Positions 469 through 52,457 of a stretch of DNA of 59,022 bases are shown one piece after another; within the stretch, counting starts at the first letter, position 1, and every line of letters starts with the position of its first letter. The DNA is taken from positions 1 through 59,022 of IMG/VR virus record IMGVR_UViG_3300049216_000181; one strand, given 5' to 3'. Origin of the DNA: a virus. Below the pieces are notes generated by a model. That model was given only the letters and a program-made list of their open reading frames with translations. It searched no databases and was not told the DNA's origin. Position numbers and translations under genes: made by a program.

Positions 469-773
469 GGGCGGTAGTTGGCGAGCACGGCGGCGACTTT
501 TCGGCCGGCGAGCGTGGGCGAAACGGTGAGGCCAAAGGGACCGCGGGCGCCCGTGAAGGTGACGCGCTCGCCATCGTCGAGACAGGTGATGGACACCCGG
601 AAGCCCGATGGCTTGAGGCGCGGTAGTATGACATGCGAGCAGTCGGGCATGGGCTCGGTGCGGGCGGCACGAGCCAGGCGCAGGCGCTCCTTAGCCGCGC
701 GCTGGTTGGCCCGTTTCCGCAAATGCCGACGCAGGTTCTTGCTGCGCCAGCGTGATTTCTGCCTTATCCTCAT
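465..773 (-). CDS. Small basic hypothetical protein, 102 residues
   Basis: The start ATG at 773 overlaps the TGA of the cysteine-rich upstream gene (ATGA), and its own stop overlaps the GTG start of the next gene, so three genes are translationally chained. The N-terminal half is very rich in arginine (for example RWRSKNLRRHLRKRANQR), suggesting nucleic-acid binding. The C-terminal half looks like a small beta-rich fold. No known domain is recognised, and the function is unknown. Confidence 0.55.
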   Translation of the reverse strand: MRIRQKSRWRSKNLRRHLRKRANQRAAKERLRLARAARTEPMPDCSHVILPRLKPSGFRVSITCLDDGERVTFTGARGPFGLTVSPTLAGRKVAAVLANYRP

Positions 774-1279
774 TTTGCACCTTGGCTGATTCTATGGTTC
801 AACCCTTCAGTGGGCGCGCCTGGTTCTACGGACGCCAAGGACTCGCACACGCGATCCCAAAACATCCGGTCATCCACTGTCACGAGGAAGCCTTCGCCCA
901 TCACGTCGCCGCCGTTGGCGAGGATATGCGCGGCGCAGGTCCACGCTTTGCAGATGTCGATTTGCTCCGGCGAGAGTTCCGCTTTTTCGAGCGCGAGCAG
1001 GTGCGGGCATTTCCGGCATTCGGTGCCGAGGCAGCACGTCAGGTGATTATCGACGATGTGCTTTCCATCGGAGCAGCACGCGCACGGGCGGAAGATTTTC
1101 GCCAGCTTGTTCTCGCGCTCCATCGCGAAGAGGAGGGCCATGCGCGGCACCTCATGAGCGGCGGTCTTGCCATCATACATGAAGCGCGGCCATTCGTCCT
1201 TTCCCATCTTGTCGCGCGTGTGCTCGTTGATGGCGCGATGCCATGGGTGGTCTATTTCTCTGATAGTTTTCGTGTCCAT
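770..1279 (-). CDS. Cysteine-rich hypothetical protein, 169 residues
   Basis: I chose the ATG at 1279 because it lies just after an attC-like half-site and gives a protein starting MDTKTIREIDHPWH. A central cluster of cysteines and histidines (CACC, then CC and CRKCPH, about residues 65-93) suggests zinc binding or an iron-sulfur site. The product is probably cytosolic and its function unknown. It ends in an ATGA overlap with the next gene. The long plus-strand frame over the same stretch lacks such conserved-looking motifs and is taken as a shadow. Confidence 0.7.
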   Translation of the reverse strand: MDTKTIREIDHPWHRAINEHTRDKMGKDEWPRFMYDGKTAAHEVPRMALLFAMERENKLAKIFRPCACCSDGKHIVDNHLTCCLGTECRKCPHLLALEKAELSPEQIDICKAWTCAAHILANGGDVMGEGFLVTVDDRMFWDRVCESLASVEPGAPTEGLNHRISQGAK

Positions 1280-1288
1280 AAAAGATGG

Positions 1289-1321
1289 GCGAACCAAGCG
1301 GTTACAGCCAACGGCGACAGG
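1289..1321 (-). repeat. attC-like half-site A (R'-L' arm)
   Basis: On the plus strand the site reads GCGAACC, 9 bases, then CAGCCAACGGCGACAGG. This matches the R'-L' arm of the complete sites at 2315, 4222, 4362 and 51704. The opposite arm is only weakly recognisable (CTGTCG near 1360), so this copy looks decayed. It sits between the gene ending at 1323 and the gene starting at 1279. Confidence 0.5.
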
Positions 1322-1322
1322 C

Positions 1323-1646
1323 TCACCCGTGAATGCGAGGCTCCATCCTCGCTGTCTCGCTGTCGTCTTCAAACGATATTGCGACGATGATGAGTTCTTC
1401 CGGTTTGTATGTGCAGTGGCATTGTCGGAGTGCTTCCGCTTCGGCGCGCGTCGAGAAGAGATGTCCCATTGGTTGTGAGCAGCGATGATGGCGGATTGCG
1501 TAACAGCGCCCCGAACAGGTCTCTCGACTTAACGCGCCTTGTGGGGCCGAGGATTCGATCATGCCGGTTCCGCTCGCGTCCGGTATCGGCTCGGAGGTGC
1601 CATGCGCCTTCGTTGCGAATCTGTGGATTTGCTGTGTGTCGTTCAT
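1323..1646 (-). CDS. Hypothetical protein, 107 residues
   Basis: It starts at an ATGA overlap with the upstream gene's stop (1643-1646) and ends 44 bases before the next gene, next to attC-like half-site A. The product contains four cysteines and a segment STRAEAEALRQC that looks helical. No domain is recognised. The position in a chain of coupled early genes supports real coding, but the sequence alone gives no function. Confidence 0.5.
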   Translation of the reverse strand: MNDTQQIHRFATKAHGTSEPIPDASGTGMIESSAPQGALSRETCSGRCYAIRHHRCSQPMGHLFSTRAEAEALRQCHCTYKPEELIIVAISFEDDSETARMEPRIHG

Positions 1647-2125
1647 GAAGACTTTGTTTTAAGTGCCGATGACGGCGCGTTAGTCACCTCTGCGTTCAGA
1701 AAAGAAAGGGGCGGGCATTCCGGCGCCCGCTCCATCTCGCGGAGGATTAACTCGCAGTAGATGAGGAGGCCGCGGCGGAGGAAAATCTTCTGGTAGTGTT
1801 CCTCGAAATCCAGGAGCGGGTGGAGGCTGTGCGGGTCGGGGTTGAGCGCGCCCTGGAGTTTCCAGAGGAGTGCGGTGAGGTTGCCGTCGGGGTTGTGGCA
1901 TTTGCCCGTGGGGTCGGCGAGGAAGGGGTCGCGGTGGAATGCGGCGAGGGCCTCGGTGAGGGCGGGTTTGATCTCCTCGAAGGCGTGCCAATTGGCCCAG
2001 GCGTCCTGGAGGGCGGGGCCGTGCCAGCGCTCCTCGCAGCGGGTGCGGTAGGCGGGGAGCGTGCAATAGACCGGCGCCGGTGGTGGCGGCGGAGGTGTGC
2101 CGGGGATTATGAGTTGCTCGGACAT
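1643..2125 (-). CDS. Hypothetical protein with proline-rich N-terminus, 160 residues
   Basis: I chose the ATG at 2125, giving a start MSEQLIIPG followed by a run of prolines, then an aromatic-rich helical region (WHGPALQDAWANWHAFEEIK). The upstream gene overlaps it by 19 bases, and its own stop overlaps the next start (ATGA). The middle resembles small phage early proteins of unknown role. No catalytic motif is visible. Confidence 0.6.
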   Translation of the reverse strand: MSEQLIIPGTPPPPPPAPVYCTLPAYRTRCEERWHGPALQDAWANWHAFEEIKPALTEALAAFHRDPFLADPTGKCHNPDGNLTALLWKLQGALNPDPHSLHPLLDFEEHYQKIFLRRGLLIYCELILREMERAPECPPLSFLNAEVTNAPSSALKTKSS

Positions 2126-2388
2126 TTCCTGCGCGCCATAAGATGCTCGCGTTCGCGATTGAGAAGCGCGGCTATTAAGCGAGCGGAATTTTCGTCGAAT
2201 CCACACGCTGCAACGCAGTCCCCCATTGAGTCGATGACCAGCCATTGCCGTCCAGCCTCGTCTAAGCATGGGTGGACTGGGCCGCTGCCGTGCTCGGAGT
2301 GGTCGAAGAAAAGTGCCGAACGAGACGCCACATCCAACGAGGCTGAAGCCTCGTTGGGCGGATATTGGGGAGCAATTTCGGAGTTCAT
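2107..2388 (-). CDS. Hypothetical protein, 93 residues, N-terminus encoded by an attC-like site
   Basis: The ATG at 2388 lies inside attC-like site B, and residues about 1-25 are encoded by the palindrome arms. The rest is ordinary coding sequence with a compact motif (WLVIDSMGDCVAACGFDENSA) followed by a basic helix that looks like a small alpha-beta domain. It overlaps the next gene by 19 bases. The function is unknown. Confidence 0.55.
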   Translation of the reverse strand: MNSEIAPQYPPNEASASLDVASRSALFFDHSEHGSGPVHPCLDEAGRQWLVIDSMGDCVAACGFDENSARLIAALLNREREHLMARRKCPSNS

Positions 2389-2427
2389 GTTATTTCGCAG
2401 CCTCGTGGCTGAGCTTATTTGTTCGCC
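2315..2427 (-). repeat. attC-like site B (complete arms)
   Basis: Read on the minus strand, the site has R'' GGCGAAC (2421-2427), a 10-base spacer, L'' AGCCACGAGGCTG, a loop, L' CAGCCTCGTTGG and R' GTTCGGC (2315-2321). L'' and L' are complementary except for one extra T in L' (CGTTGG against CCACG), the extrahelical-base signature of integron attC sites. The stop of the DUF4326 gene (2415) falls in the R''-L'' spacer, as is usual for cassette genes. The loop also holds the start codon of the next gene. Confidence 0.65.
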
Positions 2428-2765
2428 AAACGAAGAAGCACGTCGGCGTGGCATGGCTGGTCGAGCGGGCACCAGCAGGCCAGATTCTTGCCGCGCAGGG
2501 CCTCGACCGGAAGCGTGGGAGCGTGCAGGATCGCGAACCAATGCACGGCATCCTCGCGATCCATCTTGGTGCCTTTCAGCCCCGGAATTTCGTCGCCGAT
2601 TTTATACGGGTTTCCCCAGCGCGTGGGGCGCGCGACGACGATGCAGTTGGGCGGCTTCCGCCATCCTCGCCGCCGTGAGAGCTGAACCCGGATTGGCGAA
2701 CCAGGCGAGACAGCCAACCCGGACGTGCGTCCGTCCGTATTCGCTCCGATTTGGAGTAGGTTCAT
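2415..2765 (-). CDS. DUF4326 domain protein, 116 residues
   Basis: The C-terminal two thirds show the DUF4326 pattern: VARPTRWGNPYKIG, then REDAVHWF, then LRGKNLACWCPLDQPCHADVLL. The family is common in phages; its biochemical role is not established to my knowledge. The chosen ATG (2765) lies one base after the exonuclease stop and inside half-site C, so the first roughly 25 residues are encoded by the attC-like sequence. No start codon exists closer to the domain apart from a TTG in the same repeat. The gene ends inside attC-like site B. Confidence 0.75.
   Translation of the reverse strand: MNLLQIGANTDGRTSGLAVSPGSPIRVQLSRRRGWRKPPNCIVVARPTRWGNPYKIGDEIPGLKGTKMDREDAVHWFAILHAPTLPVEALRGKNLACWCPLDQPCHADVLLRLANK
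2696..2765 (-). repeat. attC-like half-site C
   Basis: On the plus strand GCGAACC (2696-2702), 8 bases and CAGCCAACCCGGACG (2711-2725) match the R'-L' arm of the complete sites. The outer R'' box is present as the complement of GGTTCAT (2759-2765), but the inner L'' arm has lost most complementarity. It separates the exonuclease gene from the DUF4326 gene. Confidence 0.5.
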
Positions 2766-2766
2766 A

Positions 2767-3276
2767 TCAGGTGGCGGCCAAAATTGACATGAGGTGGAAC
2801 GCCTGATCGGTGGCGTCATCGAGCGCGTTGTGGTGGGTGCCGGCCCGTGGCATCGGCACCTCGGGGTGCAGACTTTTCATCGTCCGGTAACAGCGGTCGT
2901 TCCAAAACTTCCACGGCCGCGGCAGCCGCAGGGCCTCGTAAGCGTCGGCCAACAGCACGTTGTCAAACGCCGCGCCGTTCCCCCAAACCTCGGCATCGGC
3001 GTCGCCGAGCCAACGCGCGAAATTGCTGAGCACCACCGCGAGCGGCTCGCCGGTCTTCGTAATTTCGAGCCGCGCGGCATCCGACTGCTTCAGCCACCAC
3101 ATGACTGTGGCAACATCCACTTTCAGACCGGCGTCGATGCAGCTTTGTGGATCGACACGTGCGTAAAACGTGCTGGTGATTTTGCCGTCGGCGAACTTCA
3201 CCGCCCCGACGGCGACGATGACCGAGCCCGGCTTGTTGCCGAGCGTTTCGAGGTCGAGCATTACTTGAGTTTTCAT
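2767..3276 (-). CDS. 3'-5' exonuclease, DnaQ-like fold (DUF5051-type)
   Basis: From the ATG at 3276 the protein (169 residues) begins MKTQVMLDLETLGNKPGS, which contains the DEDD-family Exo I motif (D-L-E-T). Exo II-like residues follow in DVATVMWWLKQ and the region WGNGAAFDNVLL, and the Exo III region HHNALDDATDQ near the C-terminus carries the last acidic residues. It should degrade DNA or RNA from 3' ends with two metal ions in the cytosol, as in T4 DexA-like and Rv2179c-like families. It sits in the early operon after an HTH gene. Confidence 0.85.
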   Translation of the reverse strand: MKTQVMLDLETLGNKPGSVIVAVGAVKFADGKITSTFYARVDPQSCIDAGLKVDVATVMWWLKQSDAARLEITKTGEPLAVVLSNFARWLGDADAEVWGNGAAFDNVLLADAYEALRLPRPWKFWNDRCYRTMKSLHPEVPMPRAGTHHNALDDATDQAFHLMSILAAT

Positions 3277-3283
3277 TGGAAAA

Positions 3284-3592
3284 TCAGGTGCTGACGGCGG
3301 TCGGTTCTTCGCGCTGGAAATGTGCAGCCACCTTCGCCCAGCGCGGTCGCTTCGCGATCCGCCGAATGTTCCACGGATGACGGAGTGCCACGTCCAAAAG
3401 CTCGATTTCCTCGGGCAGGAGCAGCGGCTTGACCTTGTCCCACAAAGGCCCGCGACGCCGGCTGCCAATCAGCACGCGCGTCAACGCCGGCCGCGACACT
3501 TTCAACTGCTCGGCCAGCAGTTTGACGTTGAGGCCACGTTTCCGCAGCTTCTGGTGGAACGTGAATATTTGGGGTGGTTTCAGTCCGCTCAT
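3284..3592 (-). CDS. Helix-turn-helix protein, 102 residues
   Basis: Residues about 20-45 (LNVKLLAEQLKVSRPALTRV) form a clear helix-turn-helix with the recognition helix SRPALTRVLIG, followed by basic residues. The rest is helical and lysine/arginine-rich. It starts at an ATGA overlap with the upstream gene and lies 8 bases before the exonuclease start. It is likely a small DNA-binding regulator; the target is unknown. Confidence 0.65.
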   Translation of the reverse strand: MSGLKPPQIFTFHQKLRKRGLNVKLLAEQLKVSRPALTRVLIGSRRRGPLWDKVKPLLLPEEIELLDVALRHPWNIRRIAKRPRWAKVAAHFQREEPTAVST

Positions 3593-3813
3593 GCTGTCCT
3601 CCGCTGGGGTTGATGGTTGGCGAGGCGCGCGGCCTCCTGGAGCAATTCGGCGGCGTATTTCGACCGGGTTGGCCGGCCGTCGATGAGCATCACGCCGTCC
3701 GGCGTGCAGCCGGTCTCATAAATCACAGAACCTGCGCTCGTGGGCGGCTCGCCTCGGTAGCGCCGAATGTCTGCGGCCATTTTAGCGGCATCGGATGACG
3801 GTTGGTTGTCCAT
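3589..3813 (-). CDS. Hypothetical protein, 74 residues
   Basis: I chose the ATG at 3813, two bases after the upstream stop, giving MDNQPSSDAAKMAADI. The middle (VIYETGCTPDGVMLIDGRPT) looks like a small beta-rich segment followed by a helix. The stop overlaps the HTH gene start (ATGA), so both are probably co-translated. No domain is recognised. Confidence 0.55.
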   Translation of the reverse strand: MDNQPSSDAAKMAADIRRYRGEPPTSAGSVIYETGCTPDGVMLIDGRPTRSKYAAELLQEAARLANHQPQRRTA

Positions 3814-3815
3814 GA

Positions 3816-4193
3816 TTATTTGCCTCCGTTCGTGCCGCTCGTCGGCACATCTCGGTCGTTCACCCCATCGGCCTCTTTGCCGTTGTGGTCGGCCAGGGAT
3901 GCAAGCTCGCTGTCGTCGCCGCCGTAGGAGACGTGTGCCCAATCGAGGCTCATGCTCGCTGCCCACGCTTTCCACGCGGCCCGTGCGGCATCTCCGTCGT
4001 TTGAGTCCTTCCATCCCTCCTTTGATCCGTCGGGCGCGATGAGGAAGCTTATGTAGCCATTCATCGGGCTATGCACGAGGTCGCTGCATGGCAGCCCTAG
4101 TTCGCGGGCCTTAGCCAGTGCGGAGTTGATCTTGTTCTTGTTTGGGTAGTTCCATCCGGTGACTACGATTGCTTCATGTCGTATGTAGCCCAT
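3816..4193 (-). CDS. Hypothetical phage protein, 125 residues
   Basis: It begins MGYIRHEAIVVTGWN, a start seen in small proteins of unrelated phages that I recognise by type but cannot name. An alpha-beta N-terminal domain (about residues 1-80, with NGYISFLIAPDGS and WKDS) is followed by a polar, probably disordered tail rich in D, N and G. It is the first gene after attC-like site D. The function is unknown. Confidence 0.65.
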   Translation of the reverse strand: MGYIRHEAIVVTGWNYPNKNKINSALAKARELGLPCSDLVHSPMNGYISFLIAPDGSKEGWKDSNDGDAARAAWKAWAASMSLDWAHVSYGGDDSELASLADHNGKEADGVNDRDVPTSGTNGGK

Positions 4194-4211
4194 AGGTGTA
4201 TTCGTTGATTT

Positions 4212-4352
4212 TTAAGAGAGGGTGAACCAGTTGATACCGCCAACGTCAGGGCTGCGCCCTGCCGTGGCAGATCGCGTTGTTCGGGGAAGGCGGTTTTGCA
4301 TCCAGCGCGTGAGGTTGCGGCGCTTCGTCCGCTTATTGTTTGTCGGTATCAT
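4212..4352 (-). CDS. Possible 46-residue ORF in a mini-cassette
   Basis: An ATG at 4352 opens 46 codons ending in TAA at 4212; the product is strongly basic (MIPTNNKRTKRRNLTRW). The reading frame runs through attC-like site D and starts just after site E, so it would be the only ORF of a very short cassette between E and D. It may equally be chance coding within repeat DNA. Confidence 0.3.
   Translation of the reverse strand: MIPTNNKRTKRRNLTRWMQNRLPRTTRSATAGRSPDVGGINWFTLS
4222..4285 (-). repeat. attC-like site D (complete, 64 bp)
   Basis: This is the most compact copy. On the minus strand it reads R'' CCCGAAC (4279-4285), a 10-base spacer, L'' TGCCACGGCAGGGC, L' GCCCTGACGTTGGC and R' GTTCACC-like (4222-4228). 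The inner arms pair over about 13 bases with one extra T in L', and the outer boxes pair. The length and arrangement match the classical 59-base element. Confidence 0.7.
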
Positions 4353-4361
4353 GAAGAAAGT

Positions 4362-4476
4362 GGCTAACCAGGCGGTAGAGAGGAACGCTCGGGAATGGGC
4401 CAGTTATTCGGCGGGGGCTTCAACGCTCGGGCTCGCGCCTGATTCGGCCCGAGCGTCCCTCACCTTGTTGTTCAGA
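4362..4476 (-). repeat. attC-like site E (complete)
   Basis: On the minus strand: R'' TCTGAAC (4470-4476), spacer, L'' GAGGGACGCTCGGG, a loop with a further copy of the arm near 4422-4432, L' CCCGAGCGTTCCTC (4378-4393 complement), and R' GTTAGCC (4362-4368). L' again carries one extra T relative to L''. The stop codon of the 94-residue gene lies inside R'', a common arrangement in integron cassettes. Confidence 0.65.
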
Positions 4477-4756
4477 CACCCCCTCCGCGTCCCGTCAAAC
4501 TGTATTTTCTCGCCTCGTGCAGTTTTACCACGCGGCCGTCGGGCATGGCATAGCGCCAGCCGAGGGGGACGCGGACGGCGACGGCGCCGGCGGAATGCAA
4601 GGCAGCGGCCTTCTCCCTGCGGATTTCGGTGATGCAAAAGGAGCCTGGGCCACGAGCCCAGCGACCGCCGAGGGACTTTAGGATCTCGGCGTGGCGGTTG
4701 TCTTTGGGGGCAGCCAAGGTGAGGTGCCCCCATTTACTTTTTCTTTCTGAGGTCAT
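4472..4756 (-). CDS. Hypothetical protein, 94 residues
   Basis: The protein begins MTSERKSKWGHLTL and contains EILKSLGGRWARGPGSFCI and WRYAMPDGRVVKLHEARKY, suggesting a small beta-rich fold with conserved tryptophan and glycine. The stop falls in attC-like site E. The start lies 22 bases inside the preceding 25-residue ORF. No family is recognised. Confidence 0.65.
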   Translation of the reverse strand: MTSERKSKWGHLTLAAPKDNRHAEILKSLGGRWARGPGSFCITEIRREKAAALHSAGAVAVRVPLGWRYAMPDGRVVKLHEARKYSLTGRGGGV

Positions 4757-4811
4757 AAATAGCGACGATGAAAACGGCTAGGGGAATGAGGATGCAAAGG
4801 GCGACGGTCAT
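4734..4811 (-). CDS. 25-residue single-pass membrane ORF
   Basis: The ATG at 4811 follows a good ribosome-binding sequence (GGAGGG, 8 bases upstream). The product MTVALCILIPLAVFIVAIYD plus RKKK is one hydrophobic helix with a positively charged end, so it would insert in the inner membrane. It is coupled by ATGA overlap to the ORF before it. It is the third of three consecutive tiny ORFs. The function is unknown; a membrane-active peptide is possible. Confidence 0.6.
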   Translation of the reverse strand: MTVALCILIPLAVFIVAIYDLRKKK

Positions 4812-4885
4812 TTTCGGCCCTCCAACTCCCGAAGGATGGGCAAGGCACCGAGGATAGGGGCGACGTGGGGGATGACGGAGGTCAT
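4808..4885 (-). CDS. 25-residue ORF in a chain of tiny genes
   Basis: The ATG at 4885 overlaps the stop of the preceding 29-residue ORF, and its stop overlaps the next start (both ATGA). The product begins MTSVIPHVAPILGALPIL and ends with the charged tail RELEGRK, so it is mildly hydrophobic and could associate with membranes. Short length limits certainty. Confidence 0.5.
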   Translation of the reverse strand: MTSVIPHVAPILGALPILRELEGRK

Positions 4886-4971
4886 AAAAAGCAGCGGACG
4901 ATTGCGACGATGAGCGCGCACCAGAAGCACGCGGAGAAGATGCAGGCAATTAGGACGGCGCGGCGGCTCAC
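4882..4971 (-). CDS. 29-residue membrane ORF (GTG start)
   Basis: GTG at 4971 overlaps the TGA of the upstream 60-residue gene, and its TGA overlaps the next ATG. The product starts MSRRAVLIACIFSACFWCALI, a hydrophobic helix with an N-terminal positive charge and three cysteines. The chain of perfect stop-start overlaps is the main evidence for translation. Confidence 0.5.
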   Translation of the reverse strand: MSRRAVLIACIFSACFWCALIVAIVRCFL

Positions 4972-5150
4972 AAGTCGGGCCTCCCGTCGATCTCCCGAAC
5001 CATCTCCGCGGCTTGGGCCGGGGTCGCTCCCATGCAATAGGCCGAAAACAGCTCCGACATGTAAGCCAGCGCGAGCCGCCGGTCAAGGTATTCGGAAAGG
5101 CTGGCTTCCCAGTGGTGGAAGGTGCGGGTGATGGCGTGAGGTGCGCTCAT
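4968..5150 (-). CDS. Hypothetical protein, 60 residues
   Basis: It starts MSAPHAITRTFHHWEASL and continues with a helical segment ending in GATPAQAAEMVREIDGRPDL. The start overlaps the stop of the Ala/Asp-repeat gene (ATGA) and its stop overlaps the GTG of the next tiny ORF. It is probably soluble, of unknown function. Confidence 0.6.
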   Translation of the reverse strand: MSAPHAITRTFHHWEASLSEYLDRRLALAYMSELFSAYCMGATPAQAAEMVREIDGRPDL

Positions 5151-6019
5151 GGCGTAATCAGCTTATCCATGAGCTTCACGCCGGCAGCCCCGACTATCCG
5201 CAGGGCTTCAACTCCTATGTCCGCAGCGATGGACAGGATTTCGTCGTGCTTACTGCGTTTTGCGGCCCGGCCGGCGGCGCTGGCGGCGGCGTTGGCGGCG
5301 CGGACGGCGGCCCGGCCGGCGGCGTCGGCGGCGGCGAAGGCGGCGTCATCGGCGTCGGCGGCGGCGAGGGCGGCGTCGGCGGCGTCGGCGGCGGCGAGGG
5401 CGGCGGCGAGGGCGGCGGCGAGGGCGGCGTCGGCGGCGTCGGCGCCGGCGTCGGCGGCCCGGGCGGCGTCGGCGGCGGCGAAGGCGGCGTCATCGGCGTC
5501 ATCGGCGTCGGCGGCGTCGGCGGCGGCGTTGGCGGCGCCGGCGGCCACTTTACGTGCTTCCCTTGCACTCTGCTCCGTTCCATCGGTTTCACATTTATTT
5601 GCGGCATCCTCCAAGGCCGCTTTTCTGGCCCCATCCTTCTGCATTTCGGCCGCGGCGCGAAGTGCAATCGGCACAATTCGCTGGATTGTCAGCTCGGCGA
5701 GAACGCGCGCAAATTCTTTTTCATCGATCTGGCCGGCGGTGCCGAGTTGAGCGATGGCGATTCGGCGCATACCTTTGGCGCGGGCTTCATTGCTGCTCCA
5801 TTTGCTGTCATTGAGCCGAATCTTGAATGAGCGCACGGCGGGCGCAACGCATTCGGGCTCGTCTCCATGTTCCTGACCGAGCGCGAAGCACACAGCGGCC
5901 TCAACGCACATTTGGCCCGGGACAGGGCGGCCTAAGCCGGAGCAAAGGCCAGCGTCAACTACCTCAAGCACGCGGCGCGCTTGGGCAAGGGTGATTTCTT
6001 TTTTAGCAGTGGTTTTCAT
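5147..6019 (-). CDS. Protein with long Ala/Asp helical repeat, 290 residues
   Basis: Residues about 1-150 form a normal domain that begins MKTTAKKEITLAQARRVLEV and contains VCFALGQEHGDEPECV. Residues about 155-262 are almost only alanine with regularly spaced aspartate (AADA, AADAD, AALAA), then a short C-terminal helical part (HDEILSIAADIGVEALRIVG). Proteins with this layout occur in other phages; their role is unknown to me. The repeat should be a continuous helix or coiled coil. The start at 6019 overlaps the preceding stop. Confidence 0.75.
   Translation of the reverse strand: MKTTAKKEITLAQARRVLEVVDAGLCSGLGRPVPGQMCVEAAVCFALGQEHGDEPECVAPAVRSFKIRLNDSKWSSNEARAKGMRRIAIAQLGTAGQIDEKEFARVLAELTIQRIVPIALRAAAEMQKDGARKAALEDAANKCETDGTEQSAREARKVAAGAANAAADAADADDADDAAFAAADAARAADAGADAADAALAAALAAALAAADAADAALAAADADDAAFAAADAAGRAAVRAANAAASAAGRAAKRSKHDEILSIAADIGVEALRIVGAAGVKLMDKLITP
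5265..5550. repeat. Low-complexity GGC/GTC repeat tract
   Basis: On the plus strand this tract is an irregular series of GGC, GTC and GAG triplets; on the minus strand it encodes the Ala/Asp repeat of the gene at 5147-6019. The triplet period keeps the frame open in several frames, which explains the long glycine- and arginine-rich frames on the plus strand that I do not call genes. Confidence 0.8.
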
Positions 6020-9785: not shown

Positions 9786-10184
9786 ATGTCCCAAGAAAAA
9801 TCATGCGCTTCCTGCCGTTACTGGCTCAACGAACAATGTCGCCACTCGCCGCCTCAGGTTCTTCCTGACGGCAGCAGCTCGTGGCCTCACACCCTGCGGG
9901 ACGACTTCTGTGGTCGTCACTCCCCGCGGACGCGCCCCAAGGGTAAGCGCTCCAAGGCCTCTGACGGTGCGATTCTCCGGCTGATTTTGGATGAGATCAA
10001 GTATGCCGGCGCCATGACTCGCAAGGGCTTGGTGTCCGACATCAGGATGAATTTCAACCTGTCCCGAACTGCGGCACTGTCTCGGGTGAATGTCCTCAAT
10101 GGACAGGGGCTCATCGCGATCAATGGTGAGCTGGTAACGGTCACGCGCCCGGAACTGGCGGATGCGGAGGAGGCGGTTACGTGA
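9786..10184 (+). CDS. Zinc-ribbon / winged-helix-like protein, 132 residues
   Basis: The N-terminus has CASC at residues 7-10, a cysteine at 18 and FCGRH at about 41-45, suggesting one zinc site. The C-terminal half (LRLILDEIKYAGAMTRKGLV, then FNLSRTAALSRVNVL) looks like a winged helix. It starts directly after the repeat region and its stop overlaps the recombinase start (GTGA), so it is probably a DNA-binding partner or regulator of the recombinase or origin. No family name is certain. Confidence 0.6.
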   Translation: MSQEKSCASCRYWLNEQCRHSPPQVLPDGSSSWPHTLRDDFCGRHSPRTRPKGKRSKASDGAILRLILDEIKYAGAMTRKGLVSDIRMNFNLSRTAALSRVNVLNGQGLIAINGELVTVTRPELADAEEAVT

Positions 10185-10843
10185 CCACCGCAATCTATTA
10201 CAGGGTAAGTTCCGCGCAGCAGACCGTCGCCAACCAGAAGCCGGATGTGGAGCGGTATGTTCAGGCGCAGGGCTTGGGGCCGGTGACGGTTTACGAGGAG
10301 CAGGCGAGTGCAGCCAGGCGCAGGCCCGAATTCGAGCGCATGTTGGCCGCGTGTCGGGACGGCCATCACAGCACGGTCGTCGTCTGGGCGCTGGACCGCT
10401 TTGGCCGCAGCATGGCCGGGAATGTCCGGGACGTGCTGGAACTGGACCGGCTGGGGGTTCGGGTGGTGTCCGTTCGTGAGCCGTGGCTGAACACCGCCGG
10501 CCCGGTTCGGGAGCTGCTCGTGGCGATCTTCTCCTGGGTGGCGCAGCAGGAAAGGCAGAGGCTCATTGAGCGGACCAAGGCAGGGCTGGCGACGGCGAAA
10601 GCCAAGGGCAAGCAGATCGGGACGATCAGCCCGGTGGCTCCACGGGAGCCGGAGGCCAGGGCAGCGGTGGTGCGGGCGTGGCGCGCCGAGACGGGCGGGA
10701 AGTCCGTCCGCCGGCTGGCTGAGATGCTGGGCGGGGTTTCGACGGCGACGGCGGCCCGCCTTGCCCGCGAGTGGCCGGCGGCCGATCCTCAGCAGGCCAT
10801 CACAGCGGCCAGTGGCGCGCCGGACTCACCTGAGTTTGCATGA
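10181..10843 (+). CDS. Serine recombinase, resolvase/invertase type, 220 residues
   Basis: With the GTG start at 10181 the protein begins MTTAIYYRVSSAQQ; the serine at position 10 in YRVSS is the catalytic residue. VVVWALDRFGRSM carries the conserved D-R-x-G-R motif, and the following segment (LLVAIFSWVAQQERQRLIER, then GLATAKAKGKQIG) is the E-helix region of this family, with a C-terminal HTH of Hin type. The size fits resolvases, not large phage integrases, so it may resolve multimers or invert a segment at the repeats just upstream. Confidence 0.9.
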   Translation: MTTAIYYRVSSAQQTVANQKPDVERYVQAQGLGPVTVYEEQASAARRRPEFERMLAACRDGHHSTVVVWALDRFGRSMAGNVRDVLELDRLGVRVVSVREPWLNTAGPVRELLVAIFSWVAQQERQRLIERTKAGLATAKAKGKQIGTISPVAPREPEARAAVVRAWRAETGGKSVRRLAEMLGGVSTATAARLAREWPAADPQQAITAASGAPDSPEFA

Positions 10844-13191: not shown

Positions 13192-13313
13192 TGCCAGCCC
13201 TCCCGGTGCAGAGACAGGCCGAAGAGGCGCTTGAGCGACATGACCGCGCAGAGCGGAAGCCATTCGCCGGTTTGGGCGAAGTGGTCTTCGAGGATGTTGA
13301 GAAGGCGGTGCAT
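13188..13313 (-). CDS. Small ORF of 41 residues coupled to the primase
   Basis: ATG at 13313 opens 41 codons, beginning MHRLLNILEDHFAQTGEWLP, and its TGA overlaps the primase ATG. The amphipathic helix start and the exact overlap suggest a real gene in the replication operon rather than a leader, but no family is recognised. Confidence 0.5.
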   Translation of the reverse strand: MHRLLNILEDHFAQTGEWLPLCAVMSLKRLFGLSLHREGWQ

Positions 13314-30454: not shown

Positions 30455-32806
30455 ATGCCAGACCCCCAATCCCAAGTCGGTAAATTCCTTTCGGACGTGC
30501 AGGCCGTGATCCCGGCACTCCCGGCCGGCGGCGACGAGCCGATGGTGCCGTTCCAGACCGCCCTGAAGCTGAATCGCGACCAAGAGAAGCGGATGATTGA
30601 GCACGCTTTCAAGCGCATGGGGGAAATCTCGCGCGAACTCGGCCGCGACCAGACCGTTCAGCCGAACTGGTGGATGAACAACGGACAGTCGCAGAATCAG
30701 GCGCTGGCGAGCCAGGGCCTCGTGCCGACCGAAACCTTCCTTGGCAAGCGCGCCCGCTTCGATGCCACGTTTGCGAACGATGTCGCGTGGCGGCCTTACA
30801 CCTTCGGCCCGGACAACATCTTCTTCTCGTCCAACATCCCGGTGCCAGTCGTCCGCCGCGTGTGCCGGCAGATGATTGCGCGGGCCAAGAATGCGTTCTT
30901 CGGGACTGACCCGTGGTTCTCCATTGACCCGACCCCGGTGCCAGAGTTCGACCCGGAGGAACATGCCGAGCGAGCCGACCGGATAGAGAAGTTCTGCCGC
31001 TTCAAGCTGGGCGAGTCCCAGTCGGACGCGAAGGCTTCTGCCGGCCGCGCTATCGCCCGTGCGCTGATTCTGGGTGAGGCCGTGGTGAAGACCTCGTATG
31101 TTGTCCGCGACCAGATTTTCAACGTCGAGGCGACCGTCCTTCACGGCGTCGATGGTCAGCCCGTGCGCGCCTCGGACGGCAATTTCATCACCGAGGAAGA
31201 CCAGTGGGTTGACGCGCAGGATGGAATGGGGACGATGGTGTTGGAGCGCGACCCGAGCGTGGTTCGTCCGCTGGCGCCGATCTACCAGAAGATCCCGCTT
31301 GATCGCCGGCAGGTGCTGTTTGAGGGCACGAAGTCGGATGTCATCTACTACAAGGACTTCCTGTGTCCGCTGACTGCGGCGGATGAGCAGCAGGCGGATT
31401 GCGTGATCCATCTTTATGACAAGCCGGTGATGGAGTTCGTCGATCTCGTGGTCAAGCGAGGCATGGTGGATGACACAGCCGAGGATCGCATCAACGCCGC
31501 ACAAAAGATGGTGGCGCTCGTGAAGAAGATGGCGGACAACAGCCAGCTCCCGAAGTCTGCGGCCAACATGCAGTCAAGGCCGAACGAATACTTCTCCGGC
31601 GGTCCATCCGTTGAGACTGGTGGCCCGATTTCAGAGTTCGCCGAGTTCTACATGTGGTATGACGCCAACGGCGATGGAATCGCGGAGAACATCATGCTCG
31701 TCTGCGATAAGGTGACGCAGGCGCCGATTTTCTACGACCACGTTGCGAATGTCACCACGGATGGCCTTCGCCCGTTGAAGGTCGTGCGCGTGAATCCGGT
31801 GGAGGGGCGGTGGTATGGCGTGGGCATCATGGAACTCTTCGAGAGTTACCAGAACATCATCGACTTGTTGGTGAATCGCTGGAATTTCTCCCAGAGCCGT
31901 GCCGGCCGCGTGGACTTCTGGCGTCCGACCGACACGCAGGAGGGCGACCGCGATCCGAACCTGAAGATGAACTATGGTGGAACATACACAGCGAAACCTG
32001 GTATCGACCCCACCGAAATCCTCACCTCGGTTTACTTGCGAGATGAAAAGTTCGCCGACCTTGAGCGGATGTTCACCCTTTTCTTCCAGCTTCTCGCAAA
32101 CGAGAGCGGCGTCAGCAATGCGAACGACGCCGCGGCTGCGGGGCTGAATACCTCGGACCTCGCCACTGGCATCAACAACATCCAGCAGAGCGGCCTTGAG
32201 CTGACGGAACCCATGCTACAGGACTTGAAGCCGGGCATTCAAGACGTGCTCACACGCGAGGTGGAGATCACCTTGGCCAACATGAATCCCGTCGAGGTGT
32301 TTGAATATCTCAACGGCGACACCAAGGGCATCGACACTATCACCCCCGATGATGTCCGCGGCCTGAAATTTAAGGTCAAGATCGAGTTGGACACCAAGAA
32401 CGATCAGCAGAAGATTCAACTCTCCACTGCTGCGGCTGCACTTGTGGAAAGATTTTATCTCTTGGCCCCTTCCGTGCAGCAAAAAGTAGTCGGGTTCTAT
32501 CGTGACCAAGTTCGCCGACTGTGCCCGCGTTGCGATGTCAAGTCGGTCATTTCCCCGGTTGAGCCCACTGGCCCTCAGCCCGAGGCGCCTCGCAAGACGG
32601 TGACGGTTAATATCAAAGGCGAGCAGCTCACGCCCGAGCAGCGCGACGAACTCCTTCAGGAGCAATACGACGTTCAGGCCGCTGGCGCACAGCCGCTCAA
32701 GACACGGGATCAAGGCTCGGTTGAGAAGCTAGGAGAGCCTGCGCCTGCGACCGAGTTCAGCGCCCAACTTAGCCAGCGGATTCGGAAGAAGGCGTCGCCG
32801 AGCTAA
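30455..32806 (+). CDS. Portal protein, 783 residues
   Basis: It has the arrangement of podovirus-type portals: a long N-terminal helical part, a core with YTFGPDNIFFSSNIPVPVVR and ALILGEAVVKTSYVV, and a C-terminal LLVNRWNFSQSRAGRVDFWR and LTEPMLQDLKPGIQDV stem/wing region, then a basic tail. The portal is the ring at the packaging vertex that binds the terminase. It lies right after the large virion gene and before a small ORF and a glycosyltransferase, close to terL upstream. Confidence 0.8.
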   Translation: MPDPQSQVGKFLSDVQAVIPALPAGGDEPMVPFQTALKLNRDQEKRMIEHAFKRMGEISRELGRDQTVQPNWWMNNGQSQNQALASQGLVPTETFLGKRARFDATFANDVAWRPYTFGPDNIFFSSNIPVPVVRRVCRQMIARAKNAFFGTDPWFSIDPTPVPEFDPEEHAERADRIEKFCRFKLGESQSDAKASAGRAIARALILGEAVVKTSYVVRDQIFNVEATVLHGVDGQPVRASDGNFITEEDQWVDAQDGMGTMVLERDPSVVRPLAPIYQKIPLDRRQVLFEGTKSDVIYYKDFLCPLTAADEQQADCVIHLYDKPVMEFVDLVVKRGMVDDTAEDRINAAQKMVALVKKMADNSQLPKSAANMQSRPNEYFSGGPSVETGGPISEFAEFYMWYDANGDGIAENIMLVCDKVTQAPIFYDHVANVTTDGLRPLKVVRVNPVEGRWYGVGIMELFESYQNIIDLLVNRWNFSQSRAGRVDFWRPTDTQEGDRDPNLKMNYGGTYTAKPGIDPTEILTSVYLRDEKFADLERMFTLFFQLLANESGVSNANDAAAAGLNTSDLATGINNIQQSGLELTEPMLQDLKPGIQDVLTREVEITLANMNPVEVFEYLNGDTKGIDTITPDDVRGLKFKVKIELDTKNDQQKIQLSTAAAALVERFYLLAPSVQQKVVGFYRDQVRRLCPRCDVKSVISPVEPTGPQPEAPRKTVTVNIKGEQLTPEQRDELLQEQYDVQAAGAQPLKTRDQGSVEKLGEPAPATEFSAQLSQRIRKKASPS

Positions 32807-40041: not shown

Positions 40042-41541
40042 ATGTCTTGGGAACTTGGTTCTCCTAACACCGGCACGTCCCTCGCGACGCAGTCGCCGGA
40101 TTCAGTCCGTGTCCTCTGGCAGAAGGCCATGGATATATTTGAGCAAACGAACGACTTCTTCGCCCAGTTCGAGGGCGACTCGAAAGACAGCCCCATTTTT
40201 GTCATCAACGACACGTCGGTTGACCGCGGCCTCAAGTTCCGCGTCACCGCCACCGCCGGCTTCTATGGCCGCGGCAAGTCGGGCGATGCGCTGTTCACCG
40301 ACACCGATGACTTTGAGAAGCAGGTCATCAACTCCAACGAGATGCAGGCGGATTACCTCCGCAATGCCACCTCCTACACCCGCCGTGCGGACGAGTTTAT
40401 GGGTCTTCAGGGCGAACTGATCGCCTCGATCCCCCAGAATCTCGGCGCCTGGATGGGTCGCGAGAAGTCGGCCCGCATCGGCATGATGTTCGTCCTCCAG
40501 GGCGGCCCGGAGAATCTGCTCATCGGCGGCGGCAAGGCCACCGAGGGCGACCTCCTCACCGCGGACGGCCTCAGCTACAACGACATCCTCTTCATGGGCC
40601 AGGCCCTGAAGCCGCTCGGCGGCAAGCCGGCGGAAGTCGGCACCATCCGCGGCACGCCGGTTTACAAGTATATCGTCGTCGGCACCACCCCGGGCCTCTT
40701 CTCGCTGAAGCAGGACGACGACTACAAACAGATCCTGCGCGAAGCCGGTCCTCGTGAAAAGTATGACGAGAACCCGCTGTTCACCGGCGGCTACATGGAG
40801 CTGGACGGCCACTCCATCCGCGAGTGGAACCCCATCGACCCGGACGGCTATGCGTGGAGCGGTTCGCCGTTCAACGCCAAGGCGTTCCTCGGCGCCCCCA
40901 TCACCGCCGGCACCTCGACCTTCGCCATCAAGGGCGGCGGTTCCGCGGCTGCTGCGGCCGTCACCAACATCGACTACTTCCGGTTCTTCCCGAACTATGC
41001 GTTCGAGTTCACCCCGGAGGACATCTATGTGCCGGATACCTCGGTCGTCCAATACCTGCTCGTGGTCGCCCCGCGCGGCCCGGTCACGGCGGACAACCCG
41101 ACCCCCGGAAAGATCGGCATGTATTCATACACGACCGGCAACAACGGCAACCAGATCACCATTCTCCAGCGCCTCGGACCCAGCAACGCGGGCGCGATGG
41201 TGAGCACCCTGGGTGACGTGACGTGGAATACCGGCGTCTGGTCCGGCAAGCATGCCGAGAACTTCCCCATCGGCTCCACGGTCGTCCTCTGCAACAAGAA
41301 GGGCGTGCCGATTGGCGACACGATCATGATGGGCGCCATGGCCGCGATGCGCGGCTACGGCAAGTATCGCAACACCCGCGATTCCTGGCTCGTGGACGGC
41401 AACTTCGAGACCCGCATGTATATCACGACTGTCTTCGGACAGAAACTCAGAAAGAATGTTAACTCGAAGTATCCTGGTTACGTAAGGCTTCGAAGCGCAA
41501 TCTCTTACCCTGAATTGGGTTTGCCGACTGTGACTGCTTAA
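40042..41541 (+). CDS. Major capsid protein, N4-gp56 type, 499 residues
   Basis: It starts MSWELGSPNTGTSLATQSPD and contains VDRGLKFRVTATAGFYGRGK, DYLRNATSYTRRADEFMGLQ and SARIGMMFVLQGGPENLLIG, features seen in N4-gp56-type capsid proteins with the HK97 fold. It forms the icosahedral shell. The last about 25 codons have visibly lower GC than the rest and lie next to the antisense HNH gene. A strong terminator follows. Confidence 0.8.
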   Translation: MSWELGSPNTGTSLATQSPDSVRVLWQKAMDIFEQTNDFFAQFEGDSKDSPIFVINDTSVDRGLKFRVTATAGFYGRGKSGDALFTDTDDFEKQVINSNEMQADYLRNATSYTRRADEFMGLQGELIASIPQNLGAWMGREKSARIGMMFVLQGGPENLLIGGGKATEGDLLTADGLSYNDILFMGQALKPLGGKPAEVGTIRGTPVYKYIVVGTTPGLFSLKQDDDYKQILREAGPREKYDENPLFTGGYMELDGHSIREWNPIDPDGYAWSGSPFNAKAFLGAPITAGTSTFAIKGGGSAAAAAVTNIDYFRFFPNYAFEFTPEDIYVPDTSVVQYLLVVAPRGPVTADNPTPGKIGMYSYTTGNNGNQITILQRLGPSNAGAMVSTLGDVTWNTGVWSGKHAENFPIGSTVVLCNKKGVPIGDTIMMGAMAAMRGYGKYRNTRDSWLVDGNFETRMYITTVFGQKLRKNVNSKYPGYVRLRSAISYPELGLPTVTA

Positions 41542-50307: not shown

Positions 50308-50694
50308 TTATGAGCTGCAAGTCGTGTTATCCGCCTTGTTCTCTTCCGGCTGGCGCTCAGTCGCACGGGCCAGCTCCCGGCGCAGCTCTTCGGCGCACTT
50401 GTCGTAGATGTCGGCTTGGATTTTGTAGGAGTTCGAGAGCGTATATTGCCCCTCAGCGAATGCAGTGTTTCGCAGGCCGTTGAGATACATCGCACGCCCA
50501 TACCAGTTCGTGAGAAGACTGTCGGCGCTCGACACCGGAAGAGAACCAGGCGCTACAGCAGCAACGACCTTGGCTGGGCCTGCGAACGCGGACATGGCTT
50601 CTTCGCTCGTGGCTTCGCAGTCACACATTGGGCGCGTCTGCACGCAGTCTGTCGGGTCGGACATTTGTCCTTGGCATCGTGGGCAGATTCTCAT
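50308..50694 (-). CDS. Zinc-ribbon-start hypothetical protein, 128 residues
   Basis: ATG at 50694 gives MRICPRCQGQMSDPTDCVQT, a C-x2-C zinc ribbon start, and further cysteines (CDC) near residue 25. The C-terminal half is a helical segment (QADIYDKCAEELRRELARAT). It begins inside attC-like half-site H's downstream side. Unknown function. Confidence 0.6.
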   Translation of the reverse strand: MRICPRCQGQMSDPTDCVQTRPMCDCEATSEEAMSAFAGPAKVVAAVAPGSLPVSSADSLLTNWYGRAMYLNGLRNTAFAEGQYTLSNSYKIQADIYDKCAEELRRELARATERQPEENKADNTTCSS

Positions 50695-51023
50695 GGGCGT
50701 TTTACGTTTCGGTCGTGGCTGATCTCCACGTTGGGCGAATGATTCCACGGCACGAGGAGGTTGCCCACGCTGTCGCACGGCAGCGATGGGTCTGGCCGGT
50801 TTGCGTATGGTGCTACCCACTCACCGCACCTTGGGCAGTCTTCGCCGCTTGGGCTATGGCGGTCGCGCGACGGCCGCTCCCACTTGTTCGCGCATTCGTG
50901 GCACTCGAAGAAGCGCCAACCGCGGCGAACGTCCTGAACGCCCAAAAAAGGGCCAGAGCCAACGCTCGCCGTCTGTCCGTCTTCGTGCGCGTTAGCCACG
51001 CGCGGGGCATTTTGGTTTGCCAT
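50691..51023 (-). CDS. Zinc-ribbon hypothetical protein, 110 residues
   Basis: The N-terminus (MANQNAPRVANAHEDGQTAS) is encoded partly by attC-like site G. The core has FFECHECANKWERPS and DCPRCGEWVAPY, two C-x2-C pairs that form one zinc site. Similar small zinc-ribbon proteins occur in phage early regions, with nucleic-acid-binding role likely. The end (SHDRNVKRP) is coded by half-site H. Confidence 0.65.
   Translation of the reverse strand: MANQNAPRVANAHEDGQTASVGSGPFLGVQDVRRGWRFFECHECANKWERPSRDRHSPSGEDCPRCGEWVAPYANRPDPSLPCDSVGNLLVPWNHSPNVEISHDRNVKRP
50705..50736 (-). repeat. attC-like half-site H (R''-L'' arm)
   Basis: On the minus strand GCCCAAC (50730-50736), then a spacer and AGCCACGACCGAAACG. 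R'' fits the canonical RYYYAAC box exactly. The opposite arm is not clearly present (only AGCAACGACC near 50557). It lies where one gene ends and the next begins (50691-50694). Confidence 0.5.
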
Positions 51024-51070
51024 AGATTTAGGTGCGCTCTGGCGAGCGCGGCTCATCCCTGCCGATCGGC
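50956..51070 (-). repeat. attC-like site G
   Basis: L'' GAGCCGCGCTCGCC (complement of 51041-51055) and L' GGCGAGCGTTGGCTC (complement of 50956-50970) pair with one extra T in L'; an R''-like box GCCGATC stands exactly 10 bases from L''. R' is decayed. The loop contains the stop (51028) of one gene and the start (51023) of the next. The arm differs from site F in a compensated way (CTCGCC/GGCGAG versus CTCACAG/CTGTGAG). Confidence 0.6.
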
Positions 51071-51432
51071 GGCTGGGTCTGCATGGCATCGAAGATTTCC
51101 TTATCGTGCTCCATCGCCACGCGCACCGCCTCGGCGTAGGTGTTGCCCCAGCAGGTTGTGCCATCGCTGGCGATGCAGAGTCTTTGCACGCCGTGGAGTT
51201 CTTCCGGGCTTTGCATCCCGTCGAGCCAACATAGGTAGTCGAACATGTCGGCCTTTAGCTGCATCGCTTGCCACGCCTTATTCGACGCCGCCGATCCAGC
51301 GGCCACAGCAGCAACGCCCTTGATGTCACATTCTTCGGGCGTTGCGCCTGCGCTCTGGCTCTTGGCGAGCCGTCTATTTTCCTGCTCCCACTCATCGTGG
51401 GAGGCGTCGTCGATTGTGCGTTTTTCGCTCAT
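51028..51432 (-). CDS. Hypothetical protein, 134 residues
   Basis: It begins MSEKRTIDDASHDEWEQENR and has a helical core (AWQAMQLKADMFDYLCWLDG) and WGNTYAEAVRVAMEH. Its last residues (RDEPRSPERT) come from attC-like site G. Shares an alanine-rich segment (VAAVAAGSAASN) with the 128-residue gene (VAAVAPGS). The function is unknown. Confidence 0.6.
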   Translation of the reverse strand: MSEKRTIDDASHDEWEQENRRLAKSQSAGATPEECDIKGVAAVAAGSAASNKAWQAMQLKADMFDYLCWLDGMQSPEELHGVQRLCIASDGTTCWGNTYAEAVRVAMEHDKEIFDAMQTQPPIGRDEPRSPERT

Positions 51433-51764
51433 AGAGATTTTGCGTTCGTCGGGCGTGGCTGATCCGCACCGTTCGGCAAAACGTAGGTCGTGAATCCGTC
51501 CGCGATTTTGGCCACATGAACCACGCCATCAGCTTCGAGGCGTTTCATCGCTTCGGCGGTTTCGGTCGCGCTGCGGCCCTGCGGCGATTGCGGCACCATT
51601 ATCCCGTGCGCTAGCACTCCGCGAGAAATCGCTTTACGCCAGTATTTCACGGCGGCGCGCACGTTGATTTTCGCGGGCTCGTCCGGCAGTCCAAAACGAA
51701 GCACCGAACCACCCGTAGAGCCAACGCTCACAGGCTGTCCGTTTTCGTGTGTTTGGTCAGGCAT
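51429..51764 (-). CDS. Hypothetical protein, 111 residues
   Basis: ATG at 51764 is inside attC-like site F, and the first roughly 20 residues (MPDQTHENGQPVSVGS) are encoded by the repeat. Then a helix-turn-helix-like stretch (QSPQGRSATETAEAMKRLEA) and a strand region (DGVVHVAKIADGFTTYVL). The C-terminus (ADQPRPTNAKSL) is encoded by half-site I. Possibly a small DNA-binding protein. Confidence 0.6.
   Translation of the reverse strand: MPDQTHENGQPVSVGSTGGSVLRFGLPDEPAKINVRAAVKYWRKAISRGVLAHGIMVPQSPQGRSATETAEAMKRLEADGVVHVAKIADGFTTYVLPNGADQPRPTNAKSL
51442..51477 (-). repeat. attC-like half-site I (R''-L'' arm)
   Basis: On the minus strand GCCGAAC (51471-51477), exactly 10 bases, then AGCCACGCCCGACGAACGC. 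The partner arm is not clear. It marks the junction between genes ending at 51429 and starting at 51432. Confidence 0.5.
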
Positions 51765-51817
51765 GATCTTCCCCTTTGGTCTTCTGCTGTGAGCGTGGCT
51801 CACTTTGGACGTTCGGC
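51704..51817 (-). repeat. attC-like site F (complete arms)
   Basis: On the minus strand: R'' GCCGAAC (51811-51817), a 10-base spacer, L'' GAGCCACGCTCACAG, a loop, L' CTGTGAGCGTTGGCTC and R' GGTTCGG (51704-51710). L' and L'' pair over 15 bases with a single extra T in L'. This is the clearest complete site in the right arm. Stop (51757) and start (51764) codons of the two flanking genes lie in the loop. Confidence 0.7.
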
Positions 51818-52080
51818 TGAGGGTAGTGTCTGGCGTGCTCACCGTCGGGTTGCGACTGCTCGCCGTTTTTGTAACCATGGATCGGGCAGTCGTCGCGCAT
51901 GATATAGAGTCCTGAGCAGAGCCAGCCCTTGCCATGCGCGTTGTCGTAGATCGGGCAGTTACATCCGGCTGCGATTGCTGCCGCCGAACCAGGCGCCAGA
52001 CCGAACGCGCCCGCCGGCCCCGCGATTTCGGGAGCGGGTTCAACGCTCAACACTGAGGGTTTTTCGGGCGCGCCGGTCAT
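51757..52080 (-). CDS. Cysteine-containing hypothetical phage protein, 107 residues
   Basis: The core GSAAAIAAGCNCPIYDNAHG, then GWLCSGLYIMRDDCPIHGY is a pattern found in many small phage early proteins, with four cysteines and a histidine likely binding zinc. The N-terminus is proline-rich. The C-terminal end (QPNVQSEPRSQQ) lies in attC-like site F. Unknown function. Confidence 0.65.
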   Translation of the reverse strand: MTGAPEKPSVLSVEPAPEIAGPAGAFGLAPGSAAAIAAGCNCPIYDNAHGKGWLCSGLYIMRDDCPIHGYKNGEQSQPDGEHARHYPQPNVQSEPRSQQKTKGEDHA

Positions 52081-52081
52081 C

Positions 52082-52450
52082 TTATTTGTTCGGGAAAGGA
52101 GGCAGCGGTTGCCAGTGCGTCACGTTAGAGAGCGCCCACATCGTCTCCGCTTCGACCTGCGATTCCCACCAGCCGTCCTCCGGACATCGGCATTCGTTGC
52201 CGTCTTCGTCCCACCATTCCTCGGGAGGGTCGTCCCAGTTGCTCGCGTCGAGCGTTCCGGCGGGCCACCACTCGGCAATGGTGCGCCAGCGGTTGCCGTT
52301 GTCCCAATGCCCGCAGACGAGCACCTTCTGGCCCTTCTTCGGCATCTGTTCTCCGACGGGCGTCCAACATCCCGAACCAGGCGGTGGAGCGCAATCCGGC
52401 CCCGTGGACGCCGAGACCTTCGGCGGGAGGTTTTCTGTGTTCGTATTCAT
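52082..52450 (-). CDS. DUF551-like domain protein, 122 residues
   Basis: Starting MNTNTENLPPKVSASTG, the protein continues with WTPVGEQMPKKGQKVLVCGH and WRTIAEWWPAGT and ends VTHWQPLPPFP, matching the DUF551 pattern (W-x-P-V...VLV...VTHW-x-PLP). This family is widespread in phages; its molecular job is not known to me. The start is two bases after... it overlaps none of its neighbours, unlike most of the cluster. Confidence 0.7.
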   Translation of the reverse strand: MNTNTENLPPKVSASTGPDCAPPPGSGCWTPVGEQMPKKGQKVLVCGHWDNGNRWRTIAEWWPAGTLDASNWDDPPEEWWDEDGNECRCPEDGWWESQVEAETMWALSNVTHWQPLPPFPNK

Positions 52451-52457
52451 GTTGTGG

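Follow-up and report, generated by a model that had tools for sequence, protein, structure and literature searches.

Integron attC sites inverted relative to the early genes in a tailed phage contig and related phages

What are the palindromes that lie between the early genes of the IMG/VR virus record IMGVR_UViG_3300049216_000181, and to what kind of system do they belong? The whole contig (59,022 bases, referred to here as the window) was analyzed; its portal protein indicates a tailed phage. Integrons are bacterial gene-capture devices, in which cassettes and their attC sites point in one direction. An initial annotation of the left arm had described attC-like palindromes at gene junctions and proposed a phage-borne cluster of cassette sites without an integrase. 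The window palindromes are genuine integron attC sites, about ten in number, placed between early genes, and a phage-borne attC cluster without an integrase is supported as what the window holds. That annotation had missed the inversion of the sites relative to the genes and the integron integrases (IntI) of related phages.

The window was searched with two covariance models. Model R1 was built from 18 attCs of Verrucomicrobiota chromosomal integrons, with the structure set by hand and no phage sequence included; model R2 was built from 86 phage attCs, with window sites B and S2 in its training set and sites D and E outside it. With default filters R1 matched sites S5, S4, B and S2 over the extents given in Table 1, site D at 4219-4284 and site E at 4360-4475, all on the plus strand. 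The top R1 match in 552 kb of control loci without known integrons was 17.9 bits, against which site D is marginal and site E not significant with R1 alone; with the R1 filters off, S2 gave a partial match only (10.1 bits). R2 added sites S6, S3 and S1 and made D and E significant. Matches far above background were thus obtained with both attC models, and B, D and E lie where the initial annotation had put them. The second half of the cluster, S1 to S6 at 50.5-52.5 kb, had escaped it. Sites A and C, described there as half-sites, are incomplete indeed and represent decayed attCs: A shares 85% identity across 75 bp with a more complete site of phage contig L003, and the half-site GTTGGCTGT..CGCYTGGTTCGCC has one occurrence in the window with up to three mismatches allowed, for 0.01 expected (see site C in Table 1). 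R2 scored site C at 22.5 bits, with the 3' arm placed beyond 2765. In site B the crossover triplet GTT occupies 2421-2423. Long matches were also found between site E and an attC of phage L136 (75% identity over 116 bp) and between S5 and an attC of phage L107 (76% over 114 bp); a tblastx comparison of L003 with the window gave scattered low-quality matches, which were not used. One more decayed attC is possibly present between A and B, where R2 gave a weak match (1508-1702, 18.8 bits).

A search of the window with TIGR02249 was negative, in agreement with the initial annotation that the integron integrase is missing, in 59 kb of a contig that is possibly incomplete. The search for an intI remnant in the window returned weak matches only (best E 0.002), none a plausible remnant near the attC clusters. 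A weak intI-like match lies at 158-295 (E 0.009). The window therefore has at least two clustered attCs with no intI nearby, which defines a cluster of attC sites lacking integron integrases (CALIN).

Sites of the same type were found elsewhere. In genome contigs a relaxed motif gave mostly lone matches in unrelated bacteria but a group of matches in Verrucomicrobiota, six of them from a single Opitutus contig. The motif-bearing Verrucomicrobiota contigs carry classic integron arrays, such as L046 with intI, a GTTAGGC attI-like site and cassettes in the order gene-then-attC, and five of the eight records tested hold an integron integrase above the TIGR02249 cut-off. The phage sites resemble those of Verrucomicrobiota chromosomal integrons (Opitutus JANPZY010000004, Ki3-D1 bin-0330) in attC consensus, extrahelical base and the usual orientation of intI to the array. 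Four Verrucomicrobiota genomes (G059, G108, G165 and G075) carry at least three integron integrases each above the curated cut-off.

A scan of viral sequences for the R''-L'' half yielded 60 stretches, in many of which R1 confirmed clusters of sites; R1 found at least one attC in all 17 full viral records searched, including four in L003. The same attC type is present in about 20 other IMG/VR contigs. Two of these phage records, G013 and G016, share 7.6 kb of identical sequence, and L169 was found separately through an L'-R' pattern. Hallmark phage genes encode a terminase (L164, L124 and L169), a tail spike-like protein (L158), a primase (L151) and a transposase (L162). The scan patterns were picked after inspection of the window and L003 and favour sites near the host consensus; they are independent of gene strand and so should not bias polarity. 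When the phage genes next to attCs were compared by blastp in search of shared ones, only one weak pair emerged.

In the alignment of 86 phage sites 90.1% of the cells were paired and the covariation score was 0.297, compared with 0.087 in column shuffles (none of 500 reached the observed value) and at most 0.047 with slid partners; stems therefore covary between relatives. Compensatory change was seen in all eight L''/L' pairs. Because the sites were aligned by fitting them to the model, the pair counts lean towards it, but the contrasts with shuffled and slid columns are still large. The AAC and GTT core boxes are conserved in at least 98% of the sites, and an extrahelical A (alignment column 34) is present in 100%. 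The phage sites have the R''-L''-loop-L'-R' palindrome, the core boxes, the extrahelical base and the covariation of attC sites.

The extra base also sets the strand. The initial annotation had noticed that it occupies the same place in all complete copies, but had read the sites on the minus strand and assigned the base to L'; its true place is L''. Since real attCs carry the extra base in L'', the true top strand of the window sites is the plus strand, inverted relative to the genes. In their correct orientation the host attCs behind R1 reach 59-120 bits, against no more than 27.7 bits for the opposite strand, so the strand assignment is safe and an opposite-strand reading of the sites was ruled out.

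The polarity of neighbouring genes was then counted in both groups. At 22 phage loci, confidently called neighbour genes (gene score at least 3) were antiparallel to attC in 141 cases and parallel in two, both of the latter being one weak gene in L154 counted twice. Without the score cut-off, and on partly different loci, the counts were 134 antiparallel and 5 parallel, leading to the same conclusion. By contrast, host arrays had 41 parallel and no antiparallel neighbours, and in our own reading of the 12 host intI loci at which an upstream gene was callable and the contig not truncated, that gene was on the strand opposite to intI in every case, as in canonical integrons. The phage arrays therefore depart (141 to 2) from a canonical array, in which the cassette genes are parallel to attC: Verrucomicrobiota host genes run parallel to attC and away from intI, whereas phage genes run antiparallel and towards intI. 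In L132 both strands carry attC clusters, and in either case the local genes run antiparallel to the sites. In TJE1, a published phage CALIN, the attCs are parallel to the genes (sites read by eye), so that inversion is not a general property of phages; unlike TJE1, whose sites are arranged as in bacteria, the present phages are antiparallel throughout, their sites match Verrucomicrobiota attCs and several have their own intI. The comparison was unplanned, polarity having been noticed while R1 was built and counted on the records in hand; L169 and the intI loci described below, the only held-out records, agreed later. A home-made stem-plus-bulge scanner was too strict, recovering few known host sites, and was dropped.

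Integron integrases were found in the relatives. Seven attC-bearing phage records matched TIGR02249, five of them substantially (G011 with 313 bits, G024, G022 and the G013/G016 pair), and these five integrases adjoin attC arrays. The intI of G011 is an intact open reading frame (ORF) of 318 codons in which the catalytic residues Arg, Lys, His, Arg, His and Tyr are fully conserved across the alignment, and the best structure match of its product is the Vibrio cholerae IntI 2A3V (E 2e-58). Directly upstream of it a GTTAGGC motif, a possible attI, was spotted by eye (L148 about 13302-13309, minus strand), resembling that of L046. The phage intI has the usual orientation relative to its attC array; combined with inverted cassettes, this places the cassette genes on the intI strand, running towards intI. 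When viral contigs were searched with an IntI alignment, 80 loci were obtained, and in nearly all scorable cases the upstream genes run towards intI. R2 gave 103 attC matches across the set, almost all of them situated upstream of intI and on the other strand, whereas 34 control loci had none. In reverse integrons of the Treponema type intI and the cassette genes are on one strand, with cassettes parallel to attC and downstream of intI. The phage arrays resemble these in the shared strand of intI and cassette genes, but differ in that intI closes the run of genes at its 3' end and that the gene is flipped relative to its attC.

Two viral integrase loci stand apart. L278 (KX853513, Rctr41k), a GenBank virus, has at 4680-5678 an IntI-like gene annotated as xerD/integrase-like protein, in line with small upstream genes, and C-rich hairpins unlike attC at several gene junctions; it was set aside as a candidate, R2 finding no attC in it. 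In L143 an ORF beside an attC (4513-5415, minus strand) begins like a methyltransferase (MSHG...LLDLFCGVGG) and continues as the C-terminal two thirds of an integron integrase; it is apparently a recombination-made fusion of a DNA cytosine methyltransferase-like start and an integron integrase.

A difference in gene content at the sites was seen between the window and G011, whose structural genes are co-linear with those of the window (head protein 67% and portal 59% identical). By tblastn the DUF4326 gene alone among the genes of the window cluster has a counterpart in that of G011 (55% identity), and it is flanked by attCs on both sides in both phages. Nucleotide similarity between the two starts at 2421, the G of the G/TT crossover in site B, and stops at 2718, inside L'' of site C, limits that the sequence alignment also shows; the window genes neighbouring DUF4326 had no tblastn match in G011. 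Gene gain or loss at the sites, which the initial annotation had named as a check on its proposal, is thus seen among relatives in one case, with breakpoints in the sites.

Taken together, it is highly probable that the attC sites are recognised by IntI, that inverted cassettes separate the early genes and that the window is an integrase-less and partly decayed remnant of a phage integron. The palindromes would serve as attC sites for an IntI-type integrase and separate small early genes of a tailed phage, each cassette gene being opposite in direction to its attC and the early operon running towards attI and intI; intI, where present, shares its strand with the cassette genes. The window would be a remnant without integrase whose sites have partly decayed, the phage-plus-intI form being the one seen in relatives. 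A resident IntI, either phage-encoded as in the relatives or host-encoded, would fold and recombine the attC bottom strands, and early genes would be swapped between phages by cassette exchange. The inversion may have been kept because it makes the recombinogenic bottom strand the coding (non-template) one and, provided that replication is co-directional with transcription, also places it on the lagging-strand template. Since genes antiparallel to attC make the bottom strand the coding one, the inverted layout may be the recombination-prone one and may favour recombination by exposing that strand. Experimental inversion of the V. cholerae chromosomal integron puts attC bottom strands on the lagging-strand template, and excision rises (PMC11023631; compare PMC5371416). 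There the whole array is flipped relative to replication, whereas in the phages the gene is flipped relative to its attC.

A wider proposal is held tentatively, with doubt slightly outweighing belief: phages of Verrucomicrobiota, and possibly of other hosts, may have their own integrons, with a phage IntI lineage 3' of the early operon and all cassettes inverted, the layout having been selected as a fast gene shuffler of the infection cycle through strand exposure in transcription and replication, and being isolated by polarity from the bacterial cassette pool.

The sequences show the attC identity of the sites, their inversion, their co-occurrence with intI and, in one case, a gene difference whose breakpoints fall in the sites. 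Several points weigh against the phage integron reading. Active recombination is something we infer. A single cluster gene is common to the window and G011, so that the evidence for gene exchange is a single case, and in the closer relative G025 (capsid 85% identical) R1 found no attC. Adjacencies in the intI set were less uniform, at 153 antiparallel and 35 parallel, the latter mainly from the host-like L203, L241 and L249, with L204, L205, L221 and L245 mixed. Many contigs of that set have no phage hallmark gene among the tested proteins and PHROG matches were few, so the viral status of many rests on IMG/VR. Gene strands came from our own codon-usage caller, with a homology check for some genes only, and the contigs within each set are partly related, so that the adjacencies are not independent.

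The window could instead be an ordinary phage CALIN, that is, host cassettes captured by chance from a Verrucomicrobiota chromosomal integron and now decaying, with no phage-specific system. The absence of intI from the window and the decay of several sites agree with this, and Qi et al. 2023 (PMC9892861) described phage CALINs. Captured host cassettes would, however, stay parallel to their attCs, as in TJE1; the inverted polarity contradicts simple capture, and in other phages that bear sites of this type intI lies where it usually does relative to the array. We regard this origin as unlikely. Somewhat less credit still is given to the idea that the hairpins are RNA elements of the early operon, acting in translational coupling, processing or termination, with integrase recognition a relic. 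At several sites of the window the attC does contain both a gene's stop and the start of the gene that follows, but the extrahelical base, the AAC and GTT boxes and the L boxes are conserved as IntI requires, beyond pairing alone, and intI adjoins the arrays of relatives. Moreover, the bottom-strand frame is open in 27 of 51 phage attCs and in 7 of 13 host attCs. The lack of excess over hosts also led us to reject a leader-peptide role, in which each gene would take its start codon and N-terminus from the attC bottom strand; single sites, such as that of G011 DUF4326, do fit this idea. That the palindromes arose by chance or are unrelated phage hairpins is scarcely credible: sites A and E do fall below significance with R1 alone, but integron-free controls were empty or weak, the stems covary and long matches to attCs of unrelated phages exist.

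The remaining alternative is a rival of the selective reading of the inversion alone and leaves attC identity untouched. Cassette exchange by IntI cannot flip a gene relative to its attC. Since polarity is thereby preserved, descendants of one inverted founder array would remain inverted, and the inversion could be a frozen founder state without advantage. In a quick IntI tree 18 phage IntIs formed a clade without host IntIs (SH-aLRT 99), which speaks for this reading. Inverted-labelled loci also occur outside this clade, with 11 label changes of which at least 6 are forced by well-supported branches, although labels there are based mostly on gene direction and not on checked attCs. A frozen founder state is plausible but doubtful.

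Returning to the phage integron reading, clusters of attC in phage genomes, some without intI, are already known: phage CALINs and integrons have been described in TJE1, P12002L, PH101 and Shewanella phage M16-3, and IntI1 recombined five of six tested phage sites (PMC9892861). The window resembles those CALINs; the systematic inversion appears to be new. In the PubMed Central subset searched, with subscription papers and preprints outside its scope, no title or abstract described inverted phage cassettes. Phage integrons of opposite polarity, if real, would offer a natural experiment to probe whether cassette excision is governed by orientation, as the rule has it, and would help to explain the turnover of small early genes in these phages. 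There would then be two cassette pools with a common integrase chemistry and no useful exchange of expressed genes.

Table 1. Sites and genes of the window (scores from models R1 and R2 in bits)
Feature	Position	Strand	Remarks
Gene of unknown function	770-1279	-	Gene call; start codon 2 bp past R'' end of site A
Site A, decayed attC	1281-1380	+	R''-L'' retained, L' lost; R1 8.8, not significant
Site B, attC with all boxes	2313-2429	+	R1 33.7, E ~4e-6; R2 59.3 (training-set member)
DUF4326 gene, cassette between sites B and C	2415-2720	-	PF14216, E 2e-19; antiparallel to own attC
Site C, decayed attC	2693-2765	+	R''-L'' retained, L'-R' degenerate; exact half-site motif at 2695-2718, chance expectation 0.01
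Rv2179c-like 3'-5' exonuclease, between sites C and D	2767-3279	-	PF16473, E 2e-51
Phage gene after site D	3816-4193	-	phrog_11375, E 4e-27
Candidate 46-codon ORF between sites D and E	4211-4351	-	Starts 9 bp past R'' end of E
Site D, attC	4219-4287	+	R1 18.7, E 0.02; R2 29.3, E 7e-5; fold z -2.6
Site E, attC	4360-4479	+	R2 33.6, E 7e-6; R1 13.7, E 0.39, not significant
Portal protein	30455-32806	+	phrog_1216, E 7e-9
Major head protein	40042-41541	+	phrog_334; tblastn identity 67% in G011, 85% in L167
Site S1, attC	50538-50738	+	R2 36.2, E 1.9e-6; R1 8.1, not significant; long loop with gene junction inside
Site S2, attC with decayed R''	50938-51072	+	R1 24.5 with default filters; R2 48.4 (training-set member)
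Site S3, attC with long loop	51288-51479	+	R2 41.4, E 1e-7
Site S4, attC	51701-51819	+	R''/R' and L''/L' paired; R1 34.6, E 2.5e-6; fold z -2.2
Site S5, attC	51981-52096	+	R''/R' and L''/L' paired; R1 36.7, E 7e-7
Small gene between S5 and S6	52082-52345	-	Gene call; antiparallel to attCs
Site S6, attC	52369-52505	+	R2 42.2, E 8e-8; fold z -3.9

Homology confirms the called strand of the DUF4326, exonuclease and phrog_11375 genes, and homology searches show that a RecT-like protein and a DNA helicase are also encoded in the window. Genes called on the minus strand lie at both window ends, so in a circular or permuted genome both arms would form a single early region; an exact end repeat of 16-200 bases was looked for in the window and not found. 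At several of the right-arm sites S2-S5 (50938-52080) the attC loop contains both a stop codon and the start codon of the following gene. Near the left early arm a serine recombinase of the DNA invertase family (10181-10843, plus strand) is a possible alternative mobility function, and at 5147-6019 an alanine-rich protein of 290 residues is encoded from a GCC/GGC triplet-like repeat about 300 bases long.

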